From NCBI GenBank assembly GCA_947503625.1, contig CANNEK010000004.1, positions 62,001 to 126,000 on the forward strand: a stretch of DNA of 64,000 nucleotides. Direction: 5' to 3'. The notes beneath the pieces are model-generated. The model was not told the origin of the DNA. It saw only the letters and a program-made list of their open reading frames with translations, and did no database searches. Positions 12,814-20,269 of the stretch are shown here, in pieces (the stretch's first letter is position 1; every line of letters begins with the position of its first letter). The stretch comes from an uncultured Kordiimonas sp. Lineage in GTDB: Bacteria > Pseudomonadota > Alphaproteobacteria > Sphingomonadales > Kordiimonadaceae. Made by a program: the position numbers and the translations under genes.

Positions 12814-13395
12814 ATGGCTATCATGAAAGACATCCAGAATTCACAAGTTGTTCGCGCTTATCGTCAAGGCTGGCTCGCATGGCTTGGCGCACACAAAACC
12901 GCTTTTGATTTTGCCCAGGACGGCGTTAGCAAACTGATGAACAGCCGCGAAGAACTGGTCGAAGACCTGGTTCAAAAAGGCGAAGAAGTTGAAGGTTTGG
13001 CGCAAGACAACATTGAAAAAGTTCGCGGCTACGTTGAGCCTCGCTTTTCTGATGTTACAGAGCGCTTCAACGAAGTAAGCGAAAAAGTATCCGGCGTTCG
13101 CAACAAGGTCATGGACCGCGTTTCCGGTGAATCAACTGACCGCGTTGTTGAGCTCTCTGCTGAAGTTGCGAAACTGACCAAAACAGTAAATGCACTGAGC
13201 CGCAAAGTGAACACAGCAGCTAAACCAGCTGCGAAAAAGCCGGTTGCAAAGAAAACTGTTGCGAAGAAAGTTGCCAAGCCAGCTGTAAAAAAAGCTGCAC
13301 CGGTAGCTAAAAAAGCCGCACCAGCGAAAGCTGCCGCTCCTAAGGCTGCACCTGCTGCAGCGCCAAAAGCTGCTGACGACAAGGCAGCTGCATAA
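12814..13395 (+). CDS. PhaF-like phasin with histone-H1-like tail
   Basis: A 193-residue granule-associated protein. Residues 1-65 form the helical phasin head shared with the upstream paralogue. Residues 65-130 are a heptad-rich helix (DNIEKVRGYVEPRFSDVTER, then LSAEVAKLTKTVNALSRKV). Residues 131-193 are a Lys/Ala/Pro tail with repeated AAKKP/VAKK units. In Pseudomonas PhaF a similar tail binds DNA non-specifically and ties PHA granules to the nucleoid so that they are shared between daughter cells. The same role is inferred here. The gene precedes PHA synthase and ends in a remarkable run of hairpins, so it is probably transcribed separately and strongly. Head identity to PhaF itself is not obvious by eye. 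Confidence 0.82.
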   Translation: MAIMKDIQNSQVVRAYRQGWLAWLGAHKTAFDFAQDGVSKLMNSREELVEDLVQKGEEVEGLAQDNIEKVRGYVEPRFSDVTERFNEVSEKVSGVRNKVMDRVSGESTDRVVELSAEVAKLTKTVNALSRKVNTAAKPAAKKPVAKKTVAKKVAKPAVKKAAPVAKKAAPAKAAAPKAAPAAAPKAADDKAAA

Positions 13396-13400
13396 AGATT

Positions 13401-13496
13401 ATTAGTCCTTCGGGTCTAATAGGCTGACAGGTCTGGTCCCTCCCCTTCCCCCCTGAGTTCGGACCTGTCAGCCATTGCTTCAATTACCAGCAATGG
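13401..13496 (+). other. Three successive hairpins in the phasin 3' region
   Basis: Three inverted repeats follow the phasin stop. At 13401-13420 ATTAG-t-CC pairs with GG-t-CTAAT around a TTCG loop. At 13422-13433 and 13462-13473 there is a perfect 12-bp stem with a C-rich 28-nt loop. At 13472-13496 there is an 8-bp CCATTGCT/AGCAATGG stem. The last two share two bases. None has its own T run, so they look like mRNA-stabilising structures or an RNA element upstream of the true terminator. Confidence 0.6.
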
Positions 13497-13518
13497 TTCC
13501 GTAAACCAGAGATCAACC

Positions 13519-13544
13519 AGCGACTTCGGTCGCTTTGTTTTTTT
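13519..13544 (+). terminator. Intrinsic terminator before phaC
   Basis: AGCGAC-TTCG-GTCGCT stem-loop followed by a run of ten bases that are all T except one G. It ends the phasin transcript and isolates the phaC operon. Confidence 0.88.
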
Positions 13545-13643
13545 CTAGCGCTTAGTGCTTTTCTTGTTCAGTATGGAATGTAAACCTACCGTATAGATGG
13601 CATGGGCGATGAATTTCATGCGTGTGCAAGAAGGGGAGTTGGC

Positions 13644-15326
13644 ATGGCACGGTCAAAAAAATCCATTGGCGAAAGAGCAGCCGAGACAACCACTGCATTC
13701 AGCCCGATCGTTGGTGTGCACCGTTCGGAACTTGTGAAATCACTGGGTGTGGTGATCAAGCAGGCTGCAATGAACCCCGCGTCTTTCGGCCAGCATTTCC
13801 TGAACTACGGCAAGGACATGGTTGATATCGTCAAGGGCGATAGTGAATATGCGCCGCATGCCAAAGACCGACGGTTTCAGGACAAAGCATGGGCTTTTAA
13901 TCCACTTTACAGACGGGGTATGCAGTCCTGGATGGCAATGAAGGAAAACCTCAATAACTGGCTAAGCGAAGCTGAAATTGATGAACTGGACAGGGCTCGC
14001 GCGCACTTTATCCTTGAGGTTGTGACCGATACACTGGCGCCAACCAACACGTTAATTGGCAACCCGGCGGCAATGAAGCGGTTGTACGAGACTGGCGGTA
14101 TGTCGATTGTTGCCGGTTTGAAAAACGCATACAATGATATGGTCAACGGGATCGGTATTCCATCTCAGGTTGATGCAAGGCCTTTCAAGGTCGGAGAAAA
14201 TCTGGCGACAACTCCCGGGTCTGTAGTTTTTAGAAATGAGGTCCTGGAAGTCATTCAGTACACTCCGAGCACGGAACAAGTGCATGAAATTCCGCTCATG
14301 GTCATTCCGCCGCAAATCAACAAATTCTATGCATCAGACCTGACACCGGACAAGAGCCTGTTCAGATTCCTGCTGTCACAGGGTATTCAGCTGTTCGCGA
14401 TCAGTTGGCGTAACCCCGGCGTGGAGCAGGCAGACTGGCACCTCGAGACATATATTGACGCAGTGGTCGAGGCGATGGACGCAGTCATGAAGGTCACCCG
14501 GTCCAAAAAAGTCAACGTTTCAGGTGCGTGTTCAGGCGGTATTACCGTCGCAACACTTCTTAGCCATCTCGCGGCTATTGGTGATGATCGTGTTAATTCT
14601 TCCACTTTTCAGGTTTGCGTTCTTGATCCCCGTCAGGAAGACAGCGAGGTTGGCGCGCTTGTGTCGGAGGAAACGCTGGAGCTTGCGCGTGCGCGCTCGG
14701 CTCAAAAAGGCATTCTTTCCGGCGATGATTTATCACGAACCTTTGCCTGGATGCGTCCGAACGACTTGATCTGGAACTATGTGGTGAACAATTACCTCCT
14801 TGGTGATGCTCCGCCGGCTTTTGATATCCTGTTCTGGAACAACGACACAACAAACCTGCCTGCAGGGCTGCATTCCGATTTTCTCGATAGTTACATGACT
14901 GCACCATTTGCGAACCCTGGGACCGTGGATTTTAAAGACAAGAAACTGGACCTTGGGAAAGTTGACCATGACAGCTTCATAGTAGCTGGTGTGACAGACC
15001 ATATTACGCCCTGGCGGGCGTGTTATCGCACGACTAAAATATTAGGTGGCAACAATGAATTTATTGTTTCCAACAGCGGCCATATTCAGTCTCTTCTAAA
15101 CCCTCCCGGGAATCCGAAAGCAAAGTATTTCTATAACCCCGGTAGTCTTGATGGAACTGCTGATGAATGGATGACGAGCGCTGAACTACGCGACGGTTCC
15201 TGGTGGACGCCTTGGGCCGGTTGGCTGAAAGAGCGTTCGGGCAAGGAAAAAGCAGCTCCAAACAGGTTGGGAAACACAAAATACAAGCCGCTTGCGGATG
15301 CACCGGGCGAATATGTATTTGGATAA
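13644..15326 (+). CDS. phaC: Class II (medium-chain-length) PHA synthase
   Basis: A 560-residue polyhydroxyalkanoate polymerase that joins (R)-3-hydroxyacyl-CoA units at the granule surface. The lipase-like box SGACSGG places the nucleophile at C296, with D452 in DHITPW and H480 in NSGHIQS. These positions essentially coincide with the C296/Asp451/His479 triad of Pseudomonas PhaC1, and long stretches (VPPQINKFY, AWMRPNDLIWNY, DILFWNNDTT) are the class II wording. Length also fits class II. The ATG at 13644 follows GGGGAG. A PhaZ-type depolymerase, PhaI-like phasin and PhaD follow, as in pseudomonads (though only one synthase is present). Substrates are probably C6-C14 hydroxyacyl-CoAs from beta-oxidation or fatty acid synthesis. 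Confidence 0.95.
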   Translation: MARSKKSIGERAAETTTAFSPIVGVHRSELVKSLGVVIKQAAMNPASFGQHFLNYGKDMVDIVKGDSEYAPHAKDRRFQDKAWAFNPLYRRGMQSWMAMKENLNNWLSEAEIDELDRARAHFILEVVTDTLAPTNTLIGNPAAMKRLYETGGMSIVAGLKNAYNDMVNGIGIPSQVDARPFKVGENLATTPGSVVFRNEVLEVIQYTPSTEQVHEIPLMVIPPQINKFYASDLTPDKSLFRFLLSQGIQLFAISWRNPGVEQADWHLETYIDAVVEAMDAVMKVTRSKKVNVSGACSGGITVATLLSHLAAIGDDRVNSSTFQVCVLDPRQEDSEVGALVSEETLELARARSAQKGILSGDDLSRTFAWMRPNDLIWNYVVNNYLLGDAPPAFDILFWNNDTTNLPAGLHSDFLDSYMTAPFANPGTVDFKDKKLDLGKVDHDSFIVAGVTDHITPWRACYRTTKILGGNNEFIVSNSGHIQSLLNPPGNPKAKYFYNPGSLDGTADEWMTSAELRDGSWWTPWAGWLKERSGKEKAAPNRLGNTKYKPLADAPGEYVFG

Positions 15327-15438
15327 AAAAATTTAAGACTTATGTCTTATTATGGGGTGAGAGAACCGAGACGGCCCGGGAAGCTGTCTCGTTGGCTGAT
15401 CGGTATTTGCGGTCAGCGACCTTTGGAGAGAGGAACGT

Positions 15439-16287
15439 ATGGCAGGTTATCAGCCAAAGATCGAGCTTGTCGACGTCGGCAGGCAGAAATTGCGCACAGC
15501 TATCTGGCAAGGCGGCGGAAGAGAGCGGCCCCTGTTGTTTTTCAACGGGATAGGGGCGAACCTGGAACTTGTTGGCCCGCTCGGCGAAATGATGCGGGAG
15601 CGCTCAGACGTCGTGGTATTTGATATGCCGGGAATTGGGGGCTCACCCGCACCAACGTTCCCTTATCGCCCATCAACGGTTGCAACTTGGTCTAATCGCA
15701 TTCTGGACGAATTTGGCTATTCAGATGTGGACGTCATGGGGATATCCTGGGGCGGCGGGGCTGCGCAGCAGTTTGCATTGACCAACCCTGACCGTGCGCG
15801 GTCGCTTGTTTTGCTTGCGACAAGTGCAGGCATGGTCATGGTGCCGGGAAATATCAGCGCGCTCAGCAAAATGGCTAATCCTCGGCGTTATATTGACCCG
15901 GACTATATGATGTCCAATTTCGAAACTCTGTATGGCGATGCTGCAGACAATAGTGCTATGGGGCACAAAAGCAGGATTATTGCCCCTAGCAAGCTCGGAT
16001 ACGCTTATCAGTTGATGGCGATGGCGGGGTGGACAAGTATTCATAGGCTGCCGTTTCTGAAGCAGCCAACTTTGGTGATGTCTGGGGACAAAGACAATAT
16101 TGTTCCACTCGCCAATGCCAGAATTTTGAAAGCTGTGATCCCGAGATCGGATTTAAAGATTGTTAAAGGCGGAGGACATTTATTTGCCGTTTCGCGTGCC
16201 CAGCAGGTTGTTCCGACAATTGCCCGCTTCCTTGACGATCATGCAGATGACTATCTGCAGCAGAACACAGCGTCAGCCCAGGTCTGA
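15439..16287 (+). CDS. phaZ: Intracellular mcl-PHA depolymerase
   Basis: A 282-residue alpha/beta hydrolase that releases hydroxyacids from stored polymer. It carries the oxyanion segment FFNGIGANLELVGP, the nucleophile elbow GISWGGG (S103, next to S102 of Pseudomonas PhaZ), an acid in SGDKDNIVPL and the catalytic His in GGGHLFAV. PRRYIDPDYM and GWTSIHRLPFLKQPTLV are characteristic of the mcl-PHA depolymerase family rather than general esterases. The start has GAGAGGA upstream. It lies 112 bp after phaC in the usual synthase-depolymerase order and is likely cotranscribed with the genes after it. Confidence 0.93.
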   Translation: MAGYQPKIELVDVGRQKLRTAIWQGGGRERPLLFFNGIGANLELVGPLGEMMRERSDVVVFDMPGIGGSPAPTFPYRPSTVATWSNRILDEFGYSDVDVMGISWGGGAAQQFALTNPDRARSLVLLATSAGMVMVPGNISALSKMANPRRYIDPDYMMSNFETLYGDAADNSAMGHKSRIIAPSKLGYAYQLMAMAGWTSIHRLPFLKQPTLVMSGDKDNIVPLANARILKAVIPRSDLKIVKGGGHLFAVSRAQQVVPTIARFLDDHADDYLQQNTASAQV

Positions 16288-16314
16288 AACGGCTGATAAC
16301 TGAAGGAGTACGAC

Positions 16315-16743
16315 ATGAGTGACAAACCCAAAAAAGACATGGATATTGCCCGCAAGATCTGGTTGGCGGGAATTGGTGCCTATGGTCGTGCTGTCGGCGA
16401 TGCAACAGAGGCCTATGCCAAGGTGGGCCGCGAGACGACCAAGGTATTTGAGGATCTGGTTGGCAAAGGCGCCGAGCTTGAGGGTAAAGTTGCGGACGTT
16501 GCTAAAAACTATGTTCCTGAAATGGCCGAGAAGCACCGGGCACAGGTGGAAGACCGGATGGAGAGGATGAAAGCGGCGCTTGGTATGACTGAAGCCGCAG
16601 CTGATCAGCGAGAACATATCGAGAGCATTGAAGCGCGCCTTGATTCCATCGAAGAGAAACTGGATGCGGTCCTGGCAGCGGTCCAAAAGCCAAAACCTGC
16701 GCCAAGGGAAAGAACCGCAAAAGCAGCGGCGGCTAAAAAATAG
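16315..16743 (+). CDS. phaI: PhaI/PhaF-family phasin
   Basis: A 142-residue granule-associated protein beginning with the family head ARKIWLAGIGAYGRAVGDA (about residues 11-29), then FEDLVGKGAELEGKV and a long charged coiled coil ending in a short basic stretch (APRERTAKAAAAKK). It lacks the long histone-like tail, which makes it PhaI-like in length. It is 27 bp after phaZ with its own GAAGGAG site. It should coat and limit the size of PHA granules. It is clearly a different phasin lineage from the two upstream of phaC. Confidence 0.9.
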   Translation: MSDKPKKDMDIARKIWLAGIGAYGRAVGDATEAYAKVGRETTKVFEDLVGKGAELEGKVADVAKNYVPEMAEKHRAQVEDRMERMKAALGMTEAAADQREHIESIEARLDSIEEKLDAVLAAVQKPKPAPRERTAKAAAAKK

Positions 16744-16766
16744 GCCATCCGCAAAGGGGCCCGGTC

Positions 16767-17408
16767 ATGAAGACCAAGGACAGGATATTGCAATACAGTC
16801 TGCAGCTCTTTAACGAAGAGGGCGAGCAGAATGTGACACCTGTCGATATCGCTAATGTGCTGGAGATCAGTCCCGGCAACCTTTATTATCACTTCAAAGG
16901 GAAAGATCCGATAATCCATCAGTTGTTTGTGGATTTTGAGCAGGAATTTAAAATGGTGCTGAATGCACCAATTGATAAACCGCTGGAGCTCTCTGATAAC
17001 TGGGTCTATTTCTACATTCTGTTCGAGGAAATTGCCGATTTTCGTTTCTTTTACCGCAACCTGCAATCCATTCTTGAGCGCTATCCGGATTTGGAAACAC
17101 GTTTTAGAAGGCTGGTATCCCTCAAGACAAAGACCATGGCCTCGATCATTGATACCCTGAACAAGAGTGGTTTTATATCTATCTCGGCAACTGAAGCGGA
17201 GCAGATGTCCGAACGCTTTGCGCTTCAGTTAACCTATTGGCCAACATATCAGACCCTTATGGACGATGACGTCTCGACACCGGTCTCTATTCATCGAGGC
17301 GTTTTTGGCATGATCAGTCAACTAACGCCCTATGTAGTGGACGGTGGCGAAGAGTTTTTGCAGTTATTGACCGAATTCCGAGACAAGATGCTGAAGAACG
17401 CCAAGTAA
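16767..17408 (+). CDS. phaD: PhaD-type TetR regulator
   Basis: A 213-residue TetR-family regulator. The N-terminal helix-turn-helix reads MKTKDRILQYSLQLFNEEG then NVLEISPGNLYYHFKGKDP, nearly the wording of Pseudomonas PhaD. The C-terminal ligand-binding domain has an aromatic-rich NWVYFYILFEEIADFRFFYRNL segment split by the family's typical sequence. PhaD activates pha promoters in response to a beta-oxidation-derived ligand in pseudomonads. Position after phaC-phaZ-phaI supports the same role. The gene starts 24 bp after the phasin. Confidence 0.9.
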   Translation: MKTKDRILQYSLQLFNEEGEQNVTPVDIANVLEISPGNLYYHFKGKDPIIHQLFVDFEQEFKMVLNAPIDKPLELSDNWVYFYILFEEIADFRFFYRNLQSILERYPDLETRFRRLVSLKTKTMASIIDTLNKSGFISISATEAEQMSERFALQLTYWPTYQTLMDDDVSTPVSIHRGVFGMISQLTPYVVDGGEEFLQLLTEFRDKMLKNAK

Positions 17409-17634
17409 CCGCCATGTGTTTTAACGCATACAGTGCTCCATCTAGTTGTTCAGGTACGCTAAGAAACAATATGTCGAATCGTTGCCCATAAAATAGGCAA
17501 TAGTTTCTTTTTTGTGCATTTTTTCGAAAGTTCGTTTGACGTTCCCCAATCTCACTGCCATCCTGTTACAGAAATGTGACCGGGGAGGGTCCATTGAATA
17601 CGGAAACAGGGTCAACAACGGCAAGGAGAACTGT

Positions 17635-18435
17635 GTGTTCAATTTTTCTCGAAAGGTGAAAGCGCCTTCTGCACTATTGGTGATGATGGAAGGGCGTGCT
17701 CTTTTTGAGTTGGGCGCGATGGCAATGTCGGCCCCGTTTCTGAAAAGACTTCCTCGTGGTGACGGACATCCGGTTCTTGTTTTACCCGGCCTTGGGGCTG
17801 CTGATGGTTCTACGCGACCACTAAGATCCTTTCTGGACGACCGTGGCTATCAGCCATATGCATGGGGCCTTGGGCGAAACTTTGGCCTGCGTGAAGGTAT
17901 TCTTGAAGGTATGCTGGACCGGATTGATGAGATTTATGCCATGCATCAGCAGAAAGTCAGCCTTGTTGGGTGGAGTTTGGGCGGGATTTTCGCCCGGGAA
18001 CTTGCAAAACTGAGGCCTGAGCAGACCAGGTTGGTCATTTCTCTCGGTAGTCCGCACTCTGGCGATCCCAAAAATTCGAATGCCTGGCGTTTCTATGAAA
18101 TGACTGCGGGGCATTCCGTCGAGGAACCTCCAATCGATACCTTGATGCATAAGGCACCGCCGGTTCCTACTACATCAATTTATACCAAAACGGACGGCAT
18201 CGTGGCCTGGCAAAATTGCCATCAGGAGAAGCCGGTTTGTGAAATCAAACAGAAGCAAACTGAAAATATCCGTGTTGCCGGCAGCCATTGCGGTCTGGGG
18301 TTCAATCCAAGTGTACTGTATGTCATTGCTGATCGACTGGCACAGCGAGAAGGCACGTGGCGCCCGTTCTCGAACGTGGGAACGCGCAAGGCATTCTTCG
18401 ACACACCGGGCCTGGATTCAGCAGTACCAGCTTAG
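17635..18435 (+). CDS. Lipase-like alpha/beta hydrolase
   Basis: A 266-residue hydrolase with HPVLVLPGLGAADGSTRPLR near the N-terminus, nucleophile elbow LVGWSLGGIFARELAK, likely acid in YTKTDGIVAW and His in AGSHCGLGFNP. There is no signal peptide, so it is probably cytoplasmic. The GTG at 17635 is chosen because AAGGAG lies seven bases upstream and upstream in-frame sequence is not protein-like. It is placed between the PHA genes and the wax ester/triacylglycerol synthase and ends in a strong terminator. A role in neutral-lipid turnover is plausible but inferred. The precise substrate cannot be read from the sequence. Confidence 0.82.
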   Translation: MFNFSRKVKAPSALLVMMEGRALFELGAMAMSAPFLKRLPRGDGHPVLVLPGLGAADGSTRPLRSFLDDRGYQPYAWGLGRNFGLREGILEGMLDRIDEIYAMHQQKVSLVGWSLGGIFARELAKLRPEQTRLVISLGSPHSGDPKNSNAWRFYEMTAGHSVEEPPIDTLMHKAPPVPTTSIYTKTDGIVAWQNCHQEKPVCEIKQKQTENIRVAGSHCGLGFNPSVLYVIADRLAQREGTWRPFSNVGTRKAFFDTPGLDSAVPA

Positions 18436-18496: not shown

Positions 18497-18670
18497 GTTT
18501 TCGAAGCTTAATCGGTCATTTTTGCGACTTTAGGGCGATATTTCTAAAAATGTCTGCATAATGGTTAGCATAAAAGGGAGCGCACATTGGTGTGCCTTGT
18601 GATTGTCATCAAGCTATAGTTTCAACAATCCAAATTGGATCTGTTGAACTGTGGCTCGCGAGAGGGGACG

Positions 18671-20269
18671 ATGATGCATAAATTAACCGGTTTGGATGCG
18701 ACATTTCTTTACATGGAAACAGATGAAACGCCCATGCACGTTTCAGCATTGTTGATATGTGAACCGCCGAAAGAGGGGGACAACCCTTTTGAACTGTTAA
18801 AGTCACAAATCGCTGAACGCGCTCATGAAATCCCGTCCTTTCATCGTAAATTGATGCCTACACCATTTTATGTGGATCATCCGGTATGGGTTAACGCAGG
18901 AACAGTTGATCTTGATTATCATATCAAGCACGCCAGCTTGCCCAGCCCTGGAAACGTTGAACAATTGCGTACCCTGATCCAGGGGCTGCACTCACTTACC
19001 CTTGATCGTGACAGACCGCTCTGGCAGTTTTATGTGATTGAGGGGGTAGAAGACGCTAGCTTGGGCCTGCCCAAAGGTAGCTTTGCCCTGTACACCAAAA
19101 GCCACCATGCCAGTGTTGATGGCGGTGCCGGTATCGCTGTGATGGATATTATCTCTGACCGGGCGCCCAAACCGCGTCCGCCATTGCCGAAAAACAAAAT
19201 CCGCCTGCAGGCCGAAAAGCCTGGTATGTTTGAACTTCTCGGTAGTTCGTATGGGCGTTTCCTGCAACAACAGGTAGATGTTGTCAAAAAAATACCCGAC
19301 CTTGTGAAGGCAGCAGGCTCGTTTGCGAAGGTGGCGATGGAAGACCGCAGCAGCGTTTTCAAAAATATGCAACCCGCTCCGAAAACGCGGTTTAACGTAC
19401 GAATTCAGAAACAGCGTGCATACGGCGCTCAGTCTCTATCGCTGCCGGACACAATCGCTCTTGCGAAGCAGACCGGAGCCACTCTCAACGATATTGTGCT
19501 GACAATCTGTGGCGGTGCCCTTAGGCGGTATCTCGAAGGCCATAAGGAGTTGCCTGAAAGTTCCTTGGTTGCTGCCGTTCCCGTCTCCCTAAGGGAGCTT
19601 GGCGATGCAAGCAATACAAACCAGGTATCTGGCATGACTTGCGGTCTTGGAACTGATATCGCTGATCCCATGAAGCGCCTGCGTACAGTTCAGGAAAACT
19701 CGAAAGCATCCAAAAAGCAGCTTGGAGCCGTCAAAGACGTTATTCCTCAAGACTATACGTTCTTTGGCGCTCCTATTCTGGTTTCGGCTATGGCTCAGCT
19801 CTCCAGCCGAACCGATGTTATCAACATGATGCCGTCGCCTATAAATGTAACGATTTCAAATGTTCCCGGACCGCGTCGCCACATGTATTTTGCTGGAAGC
19901 AAGGTTGTGGCGCAGTTCCCGGTATCTATCGCGACGCACGGCTGTGCGCTCAACATTACCTTGCAGAGTTACGTTGACCGCTTGGACTTTGGTCTTATCG
20001 CCTGTAAAATTGCTGTGCCTGATGTGCAGGTTATTGCAGATTATATCGTTGAAGAATTTCATATTCTCAAGGAAGCTGCCGACAAACTTGGCGATAAAGC
20101 CGTTCCGACGAAAGTTGCCGCAGAGGTTTCGACTAAGTCAGCTGCAAAGAAGGCTGCTACAAAATCAGCGCCCACTAAAACGGCCAACGGCAAAAAACCG
20201 GCAGTGAAATCTTCAGTGCCACCCAAAGCGAAGGCTCGCAAAAGAGGGGCAAAACCTACTGCTCACTGA
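18671..20269 (+). CDS. Wax ester synthase / diacylglycerol acyltransferase with Lys/Ala-rich tail
   Basis: A 532-residue WS/DGAT enzyme that esterifies acyl-CoA to fatty alcohols or diacylglycerol, forming wax ester or triacylglycerol droplets. The catalytic HHxxxDG motif is at H145-H146 (KSHHASVDGG). NDIVLTICGGALRRYL and the late INVTISNVPGP motif are also diagnostic. Start is ATG 18671 or 18674, both behind GAGGGG. After the enzyme domain ends near residue 475, about 55 residues of Lys/Ala/Pro/Thr repeats follow (KSAAKKAATKSAPTK, KARKRGAKPTAH). This tail is absent from the standard Acinetobacter enzyme (458 residues) and resembles the histone-like tail of the phasin upstream. Location beside the pha cluster suggests a shared storage island. 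Confidence 0.93.
   Translation: MMHKLTGLDATFLYMETDETPMHVSALLICEPPKEGDNPFELLKSQIAERAHEIPSFHRKLMPTPFYVDHPVWVNAGTVDLDYHIKHASLPSPGNVEQLRTLIQGLHSLTLDRDRPLWQFYVIEGVEDASLGLPKGSFALYTKSHHASVDGGAGIAVMDIISDRAPKPRPPLPKNKIRLQAEKPGMFELLGSSYGRFLQQQVDVVKKIPDLVKAAGSFAKVAMEDRSSVFKNMQPAPKTRFNVRIQKQRAYGAQSLSLPDTIALAKQTGATLNDIVLTICGGALRRYLEGHKELPESSLVAAVPVSLRELGDASNTNQVSGMTCGLGTDIADPMKRLRTVQENSKASKKQLGAVKDVIPQDYTFFGAPILVSAMAQLSSRTDVINMMPSPINVTISNVPGPRRHMYFAGSKVVAQFPVSIATHGCALNITLQSYVDRLDFGLIACKIAVPDVQVIADYIVEEFHILKEAADKLGDKAVPTKVAAEVSTKSAAKKAATKSAPTKTANGKKPAVKSSVPPKAKARKRGAKPTAH

Follow-up and report, generated by a model that had tools for sequence, protein, structure and literature searches.

The wax ester synthase/DGAT (WS/DGAT) encoded in the window (the whole 64,000 nt stretch of Kordiimonas DNA analysed here) carries, behind a complete acyltransferase fold, a flexible polycationic module of the AlgP/PhaF/MLDS kind. 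Judged from sequence comparison, structural modelling and analogy, this module, fused to a droplet-building enzyme, would most likely bind DNA and fasten oil droplets to the nucleoid, a reading that we place somewhat above even.

The gene (nt 18671–20269; all window features described here lie on the forward strand) translates into 532 aa with no internal stops, and an in-frame TTG upstream, at nt 18635, is an alternative start that would add 12 aa. Three matches above curated cut-offs assign the protein to the WS/DGAT family: PF03007 (WS_DGAT_cat, residues 5–276, nt 18683–19498), PF06974 (WS_DGAT_C, residues 317–467, nt 19619–20071) and TIGR02946 (438.5 bits against a cut-off of 309.95), the last of which ends at residue 470. 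No phasin domain (PF05597 or PF09361) was found by Pfam within the protein itself. The sequence HHASVDG (residues 145–151, nt 19103–19123), which we take to be the HHxxxDG active-site motif of WS/DGATs, has its H145, H146, D150 and G151 invariant among 26 aligned sequences. The product is presumably a wax ester or triacylglycerol, going by the family, and the genome (4.07 Mb in 11 contigs) contains a single match both to PF06974 and to the WS/DGAT protein. A sequence search for solved structures found two, 7nxg, which aligns to residues 4–468, and 6chj, which aligns to residues 5–461. In the AlphaFold2 model (mean pLDDT 82.6, with the 26 aligned sequences as input) the last helix of the fold spans residues 452–477 (nt 20024–20101); the modelled fold stops at about residue 477, and pLDDT is below 50 for residues 480–532. 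This confirms a preliminary description, in which the fold was said to end near residue 475 and to be followed by about 55 residues rich in Lys, Ala, Pro and Thr.

The tail (residues 478–532, nt 20102–20266), delimited by pLDDT, composition and conservation, is predicted to be disordered. Counted from residue 471, it comprises 62 aa with 24% Lys and 23% Ala, a net charge of +14 and only two bulky-or-His residues, so that by composition and modelled disorder it is predicted to belong with the Lys/Ala/Pro-rich tails of PhaF/AlgP/MLDS-type tethers. Pfam, including the histone-like HC2 family, returned no match to the tail at E-values up to 1. There are no DNA tandem repeats within it, the only repeat found being a two-copy 10-mer at nt 20025–20044, upstream of the tail, and its Ala and Pro residues each draw on all four of their codons. 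An origin as a tandem-repeat artefact or a frame error is ruled out by the lack of repeats, the full codon use and the existence of orthologues.

Ten of 18 same-genus relatives show no WS/DGAT match at all, so the gene is patchily distributed. All six intact orthologues from the genus (L003–L008) have basic tails of 53–96 residues with net charges of +7 to +21; two further sequences are incomplete, L011 being cut by a contig end and L013 running into N near one. The sister-genus orthologues (L009 and L010) carry a stub of 18–19 residues, net +3. At four-fold degenerate sites of the core, the window differs from the five orthologues L003–L007 at 64–74% of positions, which is close to saturation, yet the tails of these six sequences retain net charges of +11 to +21 and 2–5 bulky-or-His residues. 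A neutral simulation at one substitution per site, rough in that insertions are ignored and a single, fixed transition bias is used, gave a mean net charge of +4.4 and 11 bulky-or-His residues, with the frame remaining open in 18% of runs. Since charge is kept despite near-saturated silent divergence in the core, the alignments indicate that the tail is maintained over a large evolutionary distance. Its best-kept piece is NGKKPA (residues 506–511, nt 20186–20203), exact in four of the six sequences and present as NGKKAA in L004 and TGKKPA in L007. Within one orthologue pair (window nt 20081–20266 and L003/L028), 7 of 30 four-fold sites differ in the tail compared with 126 of 198 in the core; plain DNA identity in the tail of this pair is not unusually high.

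The distribution of such tails was surveyed by running PF06974 against 289 genomes from the class, 21 of which matched, and 299 from the phylum, 35 of which did. With relatives and named contigs added, the survey set, in which close relatives are over-represented, contained 155 distinct WS/DGAT sequences after de-duplication, and 150 once five that were open or partial (L011, L013, L049, L065 and L135) had been dropped. Under a loose rule (at least 23% Lys plus Arg, a clear net charge and a low content of bulky residues, judged over 30 residues of the tail or, where the tail is shorter, over the whole of it provided that it has at least 12), a basic tail is present in 74 of the 150 and absent from 76. 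Tails of this kind are not confined to the organism of the window. Tails occur on 31 of 57 typed WS/DGATs of the class sample, in 18 of 20 genomes, and on 10 of 50 WS/DGATs (9 of 30 genomes) in the genomes added by the phylum sample only; L085 (a weak partial match in genome G258), L130 and L135 of the class rows were left untyped, as was G506, whose gene duplicates the tailed L056. With core identity between representatives kept under 60%, 24 of the 61 are tailed, and tail lengths range from fewer than 20 to 144 residues. A strict rule, judged on the last 30 residues of each ORF, leaves 53 of 153 complete WS/DGATs tailed.

On a FastTree phylogeny of the catalytic part of the 150 sequences, whose long branches make individual placements unsure, tail state changes 19 times, with at least 16 changes forced by starred (well-supported) branches, compared with about 50 in shuffles; the stricter rule (53 of 150 tailed) gives 22 changes. 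As reconstructed from these sequences, the history of the tail is one of repeated gain or loss, between which the tree does not distinguish. A single gain with no subsequent loss is ruled out, and the tree may be compatible with one early gain followed by many losses. WS/DGAT matches were also present in 41 plasmid records, of which eight were examined; six have no tail (two from Rhodococcus and one each from Pseudonocardia, Acinetobacter, Halioglobus and Sphingomonas), and two from Caballeronia have mixed, partly acidic extensions. As half of the WS/DGATs and six of these eight plasmid copies are tailless, the tail is not required for the chemistry of the family. On a Caballeronia plasmid a phasin gene directly precedes the WS/DGAT gene, and the WS/DGAT match of Caballeronia grimmiae (L257, 1501–3109) is in two pieces, only a short C-terminal ORF being annotated; the gene looks broken.

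Such protein ends are rare elsewhere. Within a genome sample (400 kb of contigs C1, C3 and C4 plus the window, with ORFs called mechanically), only 2 of 366 ORFs of at least 150 aa are tailed by the fixed, strict rule, namely WS/DGAT and ribosomal protein S2, and the WS/DGAT tail is beyond chance in this sample. The S2 protein (L177, 8834–9868, same genome) ends in an HC2-like Lys/Ala tail of about 100 residues, which matches HC2 at E = 5e-6, below the curated HC2 cut-off. Across the survey loci the stricter rule finds tails on 21 of 98 WS/DGATs and on 3 of 194 neighbouring ORFs, with a p-value of 1.8e-8 that is overstated, related sequences being non-independent. ORF calling was mechanical here as well. 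Two of the three tailed neighbours are a phasin-like protein (L107 of genome G534; PF05597 E = 7.8e-4, below the cut-off) and a phasin (L170 of G517; E = 2.9e-10), both adjoining untailed WS/DGATs, and the third (L102) is an Arg-rich frame at a locus end. In the flanks of loci L028–L064, 5 of 352 other ORFs are tailed, four of them matching the phasins of the window and the fifth being an Arg/Ser-rich, possibly spurious frame.

Pooled, the 74 tails contain 24% Ala, 21% Lys, 10% Pro, 8.5% Thr and 7% Arg, and Phe, Trp, Tyr, Ile, Leu and Met together make up about 4% of their 4170 residues. Several short motifs exceed the expectation from shuffled tails (KPA 61 against 20.6, KPAA 21 against 4.9, PAKK 13 against 4.5, PAKKA 4 against 1.1), while there is no enrichment of KK or KKK, and KxxK and TK fall below expectation. 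The enrichment persists among 28 representative tails (KPA 16 against 7.4, KPAA 6 against 1.8, PAKK 6 against 1.4), and of 1000 shuffles 3, 12 and 1, respectively, attained these counts. It is a property of the tails as a group, the window tail alone being too short, and the shuffles leave local duplication as a possible source of the KPA-type motifs.

Upstream of the WS/DGAT gene lies a cluster of genes for polyhydroxyalkanoate (PHA) storage. It begins with phasin 1 (nt 12814–13395; PF05597 at 25.8 bits, below the cut-off of 28.8), whose Lys/Ala tail occupies about nt 13210–13392, and continues with the PHA synthase PhaC (nt 13602–15326; PF07167), a PhaZ-like PHA depolymerase (nt 15439–16287; TIGR02240 at 259.3 bits, cut-off 250.6), phasin 2 with a short basic end (nt 16315–16743; PF05597 at 49 bits, cut-off 28.8) and a TetR-type regulator (nt 16767–17408; PF13972), which we take to be PhaD-like by position only. 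In gene content this cluster (nt 12814–17408) resembles the medium-chain pha cluster of Pseudomonas, here in an alphaproteobacterium. A likeness between the tails of phasin 1 and WS/DGAT, remarked upon earlier, holds, with that of phasin 1 (27% Lys, 46% Ala) the more Ala-rich. The phasin 1 tail fails the strict rule, with six Lys and two Asp in its last 30 residues, and matches HC2 weakly (E = 0.075); phasin 2 (142 aa) is too short to enter the ORF count of the genome sample. Between the regulator and the WS/DGAT gene, an alpha/beta hydrolase, identified by Pfam and locus comparison as the partner gene of WS/DGAT, occupies nt 17512–18435 (TTG start, with 17632 as an alternative start) and completes a run of seven genes on the same strand.

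This gene order recurs in the Kordiimonas-type loci L028–L034, some of which have single genes uncalled or unmatched. Loci titled Robiginitomaculum have the hydrolase-WS/DGAT pair and no PHA-gene matches in the stretch compared, and 7 of the 11 Sphingomonas-type WS/DGATs have a hydrolase homologue (48–51% identity) in the vicinity. The hydrolase adjoins WS/DGAT in Kordiimonas-type and Robiginitomaculum-titled loci and in one locus from Pseudomonadaceae (L028–L062; 40–91% identity, including the Sphingomonas-type proteins), and one might guess that it is a droplet lipase or a supplier of acyl chains. Locus L046, from a contig titled as a Cellvibrionales MAG, has a WS/DGAT 70% identical to that of the window with phasin, TetR and hydrolase neighbours, a placement that suggests misbinning or transfer.

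The preliminary description had linked the tail to PHA, proposing one partitioning mechanism shared by two storage polymers, and had suggested a check on whether tails occur only in genomes with PhaF-type phasins. Neither idea is borne out by the genome counts. WS/DGATs were found in 65 genomes (all those with matches except G258), 62 of them with a typed WS/DGAT, and a PhaC_N match is present in 51 of the 65. Tailed WS/DGATs occur in 37 of the 62 genomes; of these 37, six (G022, G026, G066, G100, G180 and G318) have no PhaC and 18 have no PF05597 phasin match. Across the 62 genomes, the tail is not significantly associated with PhaC or with a PF05597 phasin (Fisher p = 0.22 and 1.0, respectively). 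A restriction of the tail to genomes with a PHA synthase or a PhaF-type phasin is thus ruled out. Among the 14 PhaC-negative genomes, four (G099, G405, G408 and G488) show no tail on their WS/DGATs or on the phasins examined.

Phasin genes are nevertheless found beside WS/DGAT genes in several arrangements. Of 125 WS/DGAT matches, 23 (from 21 of 62 genomes) have one or more phasin matches within 4 kb; nine of these 23 cases belong to the same family of pha clusters as the window, 13 positions are rounded, and the search for Phasin_2 (PF09361) covered 36 of the 65 genomes. By the strict rule, no Lys-rich end was found on Phasin_2 proteins in the 30 loci examined (L226–L255), a subset of the matches; among PF05597 loci, L199 and L200 are tailed and L206 is not. 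Genome G026, which has no PhaC, encodes a WS/DGAT with a 103-residue tail (net +25) flanked by two untailed Phasin_2 genes. The WS/DGAT at locus L276 (2341–5347) lies between two Phasin_2 genes in a genome with no PhaC match, which hints at phasins on oil droplets. In G506 and G510, both with PhaC, an untailed Phasin_2 gene adjoins a tailed WS/DGAT.

Elsewhere the tail is on the neighbour of a bare WS/DGAT. Two PF05597 phasins, one tailed and one not, directly precede the bare WS/DGAT of G517 (without PhaC), and a tailed and an untailed phasin-like gene directly follow that of G534 (with PhaC). In G348 and G354, both without PhaC, the WS/DGAT is bare, and 4–7 kb away an untailed PF05597 phasin lies beside a tailed protein; the latter gives a weak PF05597 match in G348 (E = 0.025) and none in G354, whose copy also falls narrowly short of the strict rule over its last 30 residues. 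These four genomes fall outside the class and within the phylum, and our guess is that they are gammaproteobacterial. In G593, which has PhaC, a bare WS/DGAT lies about 2 kb from a tailed phasin, and a tailed WS/DGAT is encoded elsewhere on the contig. A strict either/or rule, with the tail on the synthase or on the phasin, is broken by Kordiimonas, where both are tailed, and by contig C12 of G162 and by G088, G550 and G548, where neither is. Taken together, the arrangements suggest a modular tail, which one droplet protein or another may carry, and a role on oil droplets for some phasins.

For the enzyme of the window, the following mechanism is proposed. The acyltransferase fold would dock on the inner membrane or on a neutral-lipid droplet, the site of wax ester/triacylglycerol synthesis expected from the family, with the tail extending into the cytoplasm and holding the DNA backbone, its putative ligand, without sequence preference. 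Droplets would then be distributed along the nucleoid from the outset, remain so and be divided between the daughter cells. The module would not be polymer-specific, being carried by the synthase in many Alphaproteobacteria and, in some genomes from beyond the class, by a phasin-like protein encoded close by. Counting in favour of a tether module are the disordered tail behind a complete fold, the kept charge, the recurrence of basic tails among distant WS/DGATs and across the tree, and the enrichment over neighbouring ORFs; the HC2-like tail on S2, the sole other tailed ORF of the genome sample; and the tails in PhaC-less genomes together with the tailed phasin-like proteins near bare WS/DGATs. 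The motif enrichment counts in favour as well; KPAA is the repeat of AlgP and PAKKA the motif of MLDS, and DNA binding has been published for both (PMC9239181, PMC5504291). Counting against it are the tailless half of the family, the spread of lengths, the sister-genus stub, the missing HC2 match, and those PhaC-negative genomes and loci in which no tail was seen.

Polybasic tails are also able to bind RNA, polyphosphate and acidic lipids, and the nucleoid tether has to be weighed against such partners. WS/DGATs are amphitropic enzymes, and the strongly positive tail could be an electrostatic anchor to acidic phospholipids that holds the enzyme on the inner membrane or the droplet monolayer and makes no contact with DNA, an arrangement with which repeated gain or loss would also agree. 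Classic polybasic-aromatic membrane anchors, however, differ from these tails in their content of bulky and aromatic residues, and both the scarcity of bulky hydrophobic or aromatic residues (about 4% of 4170) and the presence of KPAA and PAKK motifs beyond composition speak against an anchor of this type, which we consider unlikely. That the tail binds RNA, ribosomes or polyphosphate, and so links droplet synthesis to them, is less probable again; the other tailed protein of the genome sample is a ribosomal one and AlgP is located on polyphosphate granules (PMC9239181), whereas the neighbourhood is concerned with PHA and lipid storage, in itself a weak counter-argument.

The least probable account, if only slightly so, sees a weakly constrained, low-complexity extension that provides solubility or spacing, arises easily and does nothing specific. 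The wide range of lengths, the stub of the sister genus and the many gains or losses would all be expected of it, but a charge kept across near-saturated silent divergence would not, nor would the rarity of such ends elsewhere (3 of 194 neighbouring ORFs; 1 of 365 other ORFs in the genome sample) or the finding that tailed ORFs near WS/DGATs are mostly phasins (four of five in the L028–L064 flanks, two of three in the survey loci). The nucleoid tether remains the preferred reading. A wider proposal is more tentative, and in our estimate falls a little short of even: that a movable nucleoid-tethering tail is common to droplet-surface proteins of different descent, so that in many Alphaproteobacteria it sits on the oil-making enzyme and droplets are born attached to the chromosome, while in some PHA-negative bacteria outside the class it is pairs of PhaI/PhaF-like phasins, encoded near a bare WS/DGAT, that play this part on oil droplets instead of on PHA.

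The reported cases of nucleoid attachment concern PHA granules, polyphosphate granules and the droplets of Rhodococcus, and in each of them a separate protein of the coat or granule makes the link (PMC5504291, PMC13052382, PMC9239181). Were the tether part of the synthase itself, droplets would be positioned from birth onwards, and this could hold for many wax- or oil-making bacteria. The tail would then offer a handle for engineering droplet number, and some proteins annotated as PHA phasins may act on oil droplets.

Of the known tethers, a 2025 review on organelle positioning names PhaM, PhaF, PhaH and AlgP for the nucleoid, and the terms 'lipid droplet', 'wax ester' and 'MLDS' are absent from its main text (PMC13052382). 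A survey of sediment WS/DGATs describes a different C-terminal addition, SCP-2, in Bacteroidota, and its main text does not contain the terms 'lysine' or 'tail' (PMC10351704). In the open-access literature, the scope of which largely excludes subscription papers, no report was found of a WS/DGAT whose tail is rich in lysine or tethers DNA. HBHA of mycobacteria also has a Lys-rich C-terminal domain (PMC8467707) and is reported to be nucleoid-associated and involved in lipid inclusions (PMC6176652, PMC10665949), but it is described as an adhesin and not a synthase. The preliminary description had likened the tail to the DNA-tethering tail of PhaF; the resemblance to AlgP, PhaF and MLDS tails stands for composition and, for the tails as a group, for motifs, and does not extend to an HC2 match. 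PhaF of Pseudomonas putida combines a granule-binding part with a Lys-rich C-terminal domain that binds DNA although it is disordered in its absence, and granules aggregate when PhaF is lost (PMC3574117, PMC13052382). It is a phasin on PHA granules, whereas the tail described here is on an acyltransferase, also in genomes with no PhaC match. AlgP of Pseudomonas aeruginosa has a KPAA-rich, H1-like disordered tail that is needed for granule spacing; its C-terminal peptides bind DNA, and its loss disturbs the spacing of polyphosphate granules (PMC9239181). It differs in acting on polyphosphate, in the length of its repeat region (154 residues) and in being a DNA-binding protein rather than an enzyme (PMC9239181). 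MLDS of Rhodococcus jostii RHA1 is a lipid-droplet protein with a Lys-rich C-terminus whose PAKKA motifs bind DNA with no sequence specificity; droplets are tied to genomic DNA, and Lys-to-Glu changes abolish binding (PMC5504291). One plasmid-borne WS/DGAT of this strain is tailless, the strain having further WS/DGATs outside the comparison. MLDS is a separate major droplet protein and not a synthase (PMC5504291). The tethering of droplets to DNA is as such already known from MLDS (PMC5504291), and what appears to be new here is a PhaF/AlgP/MLDS-like tail on the synthase itself.
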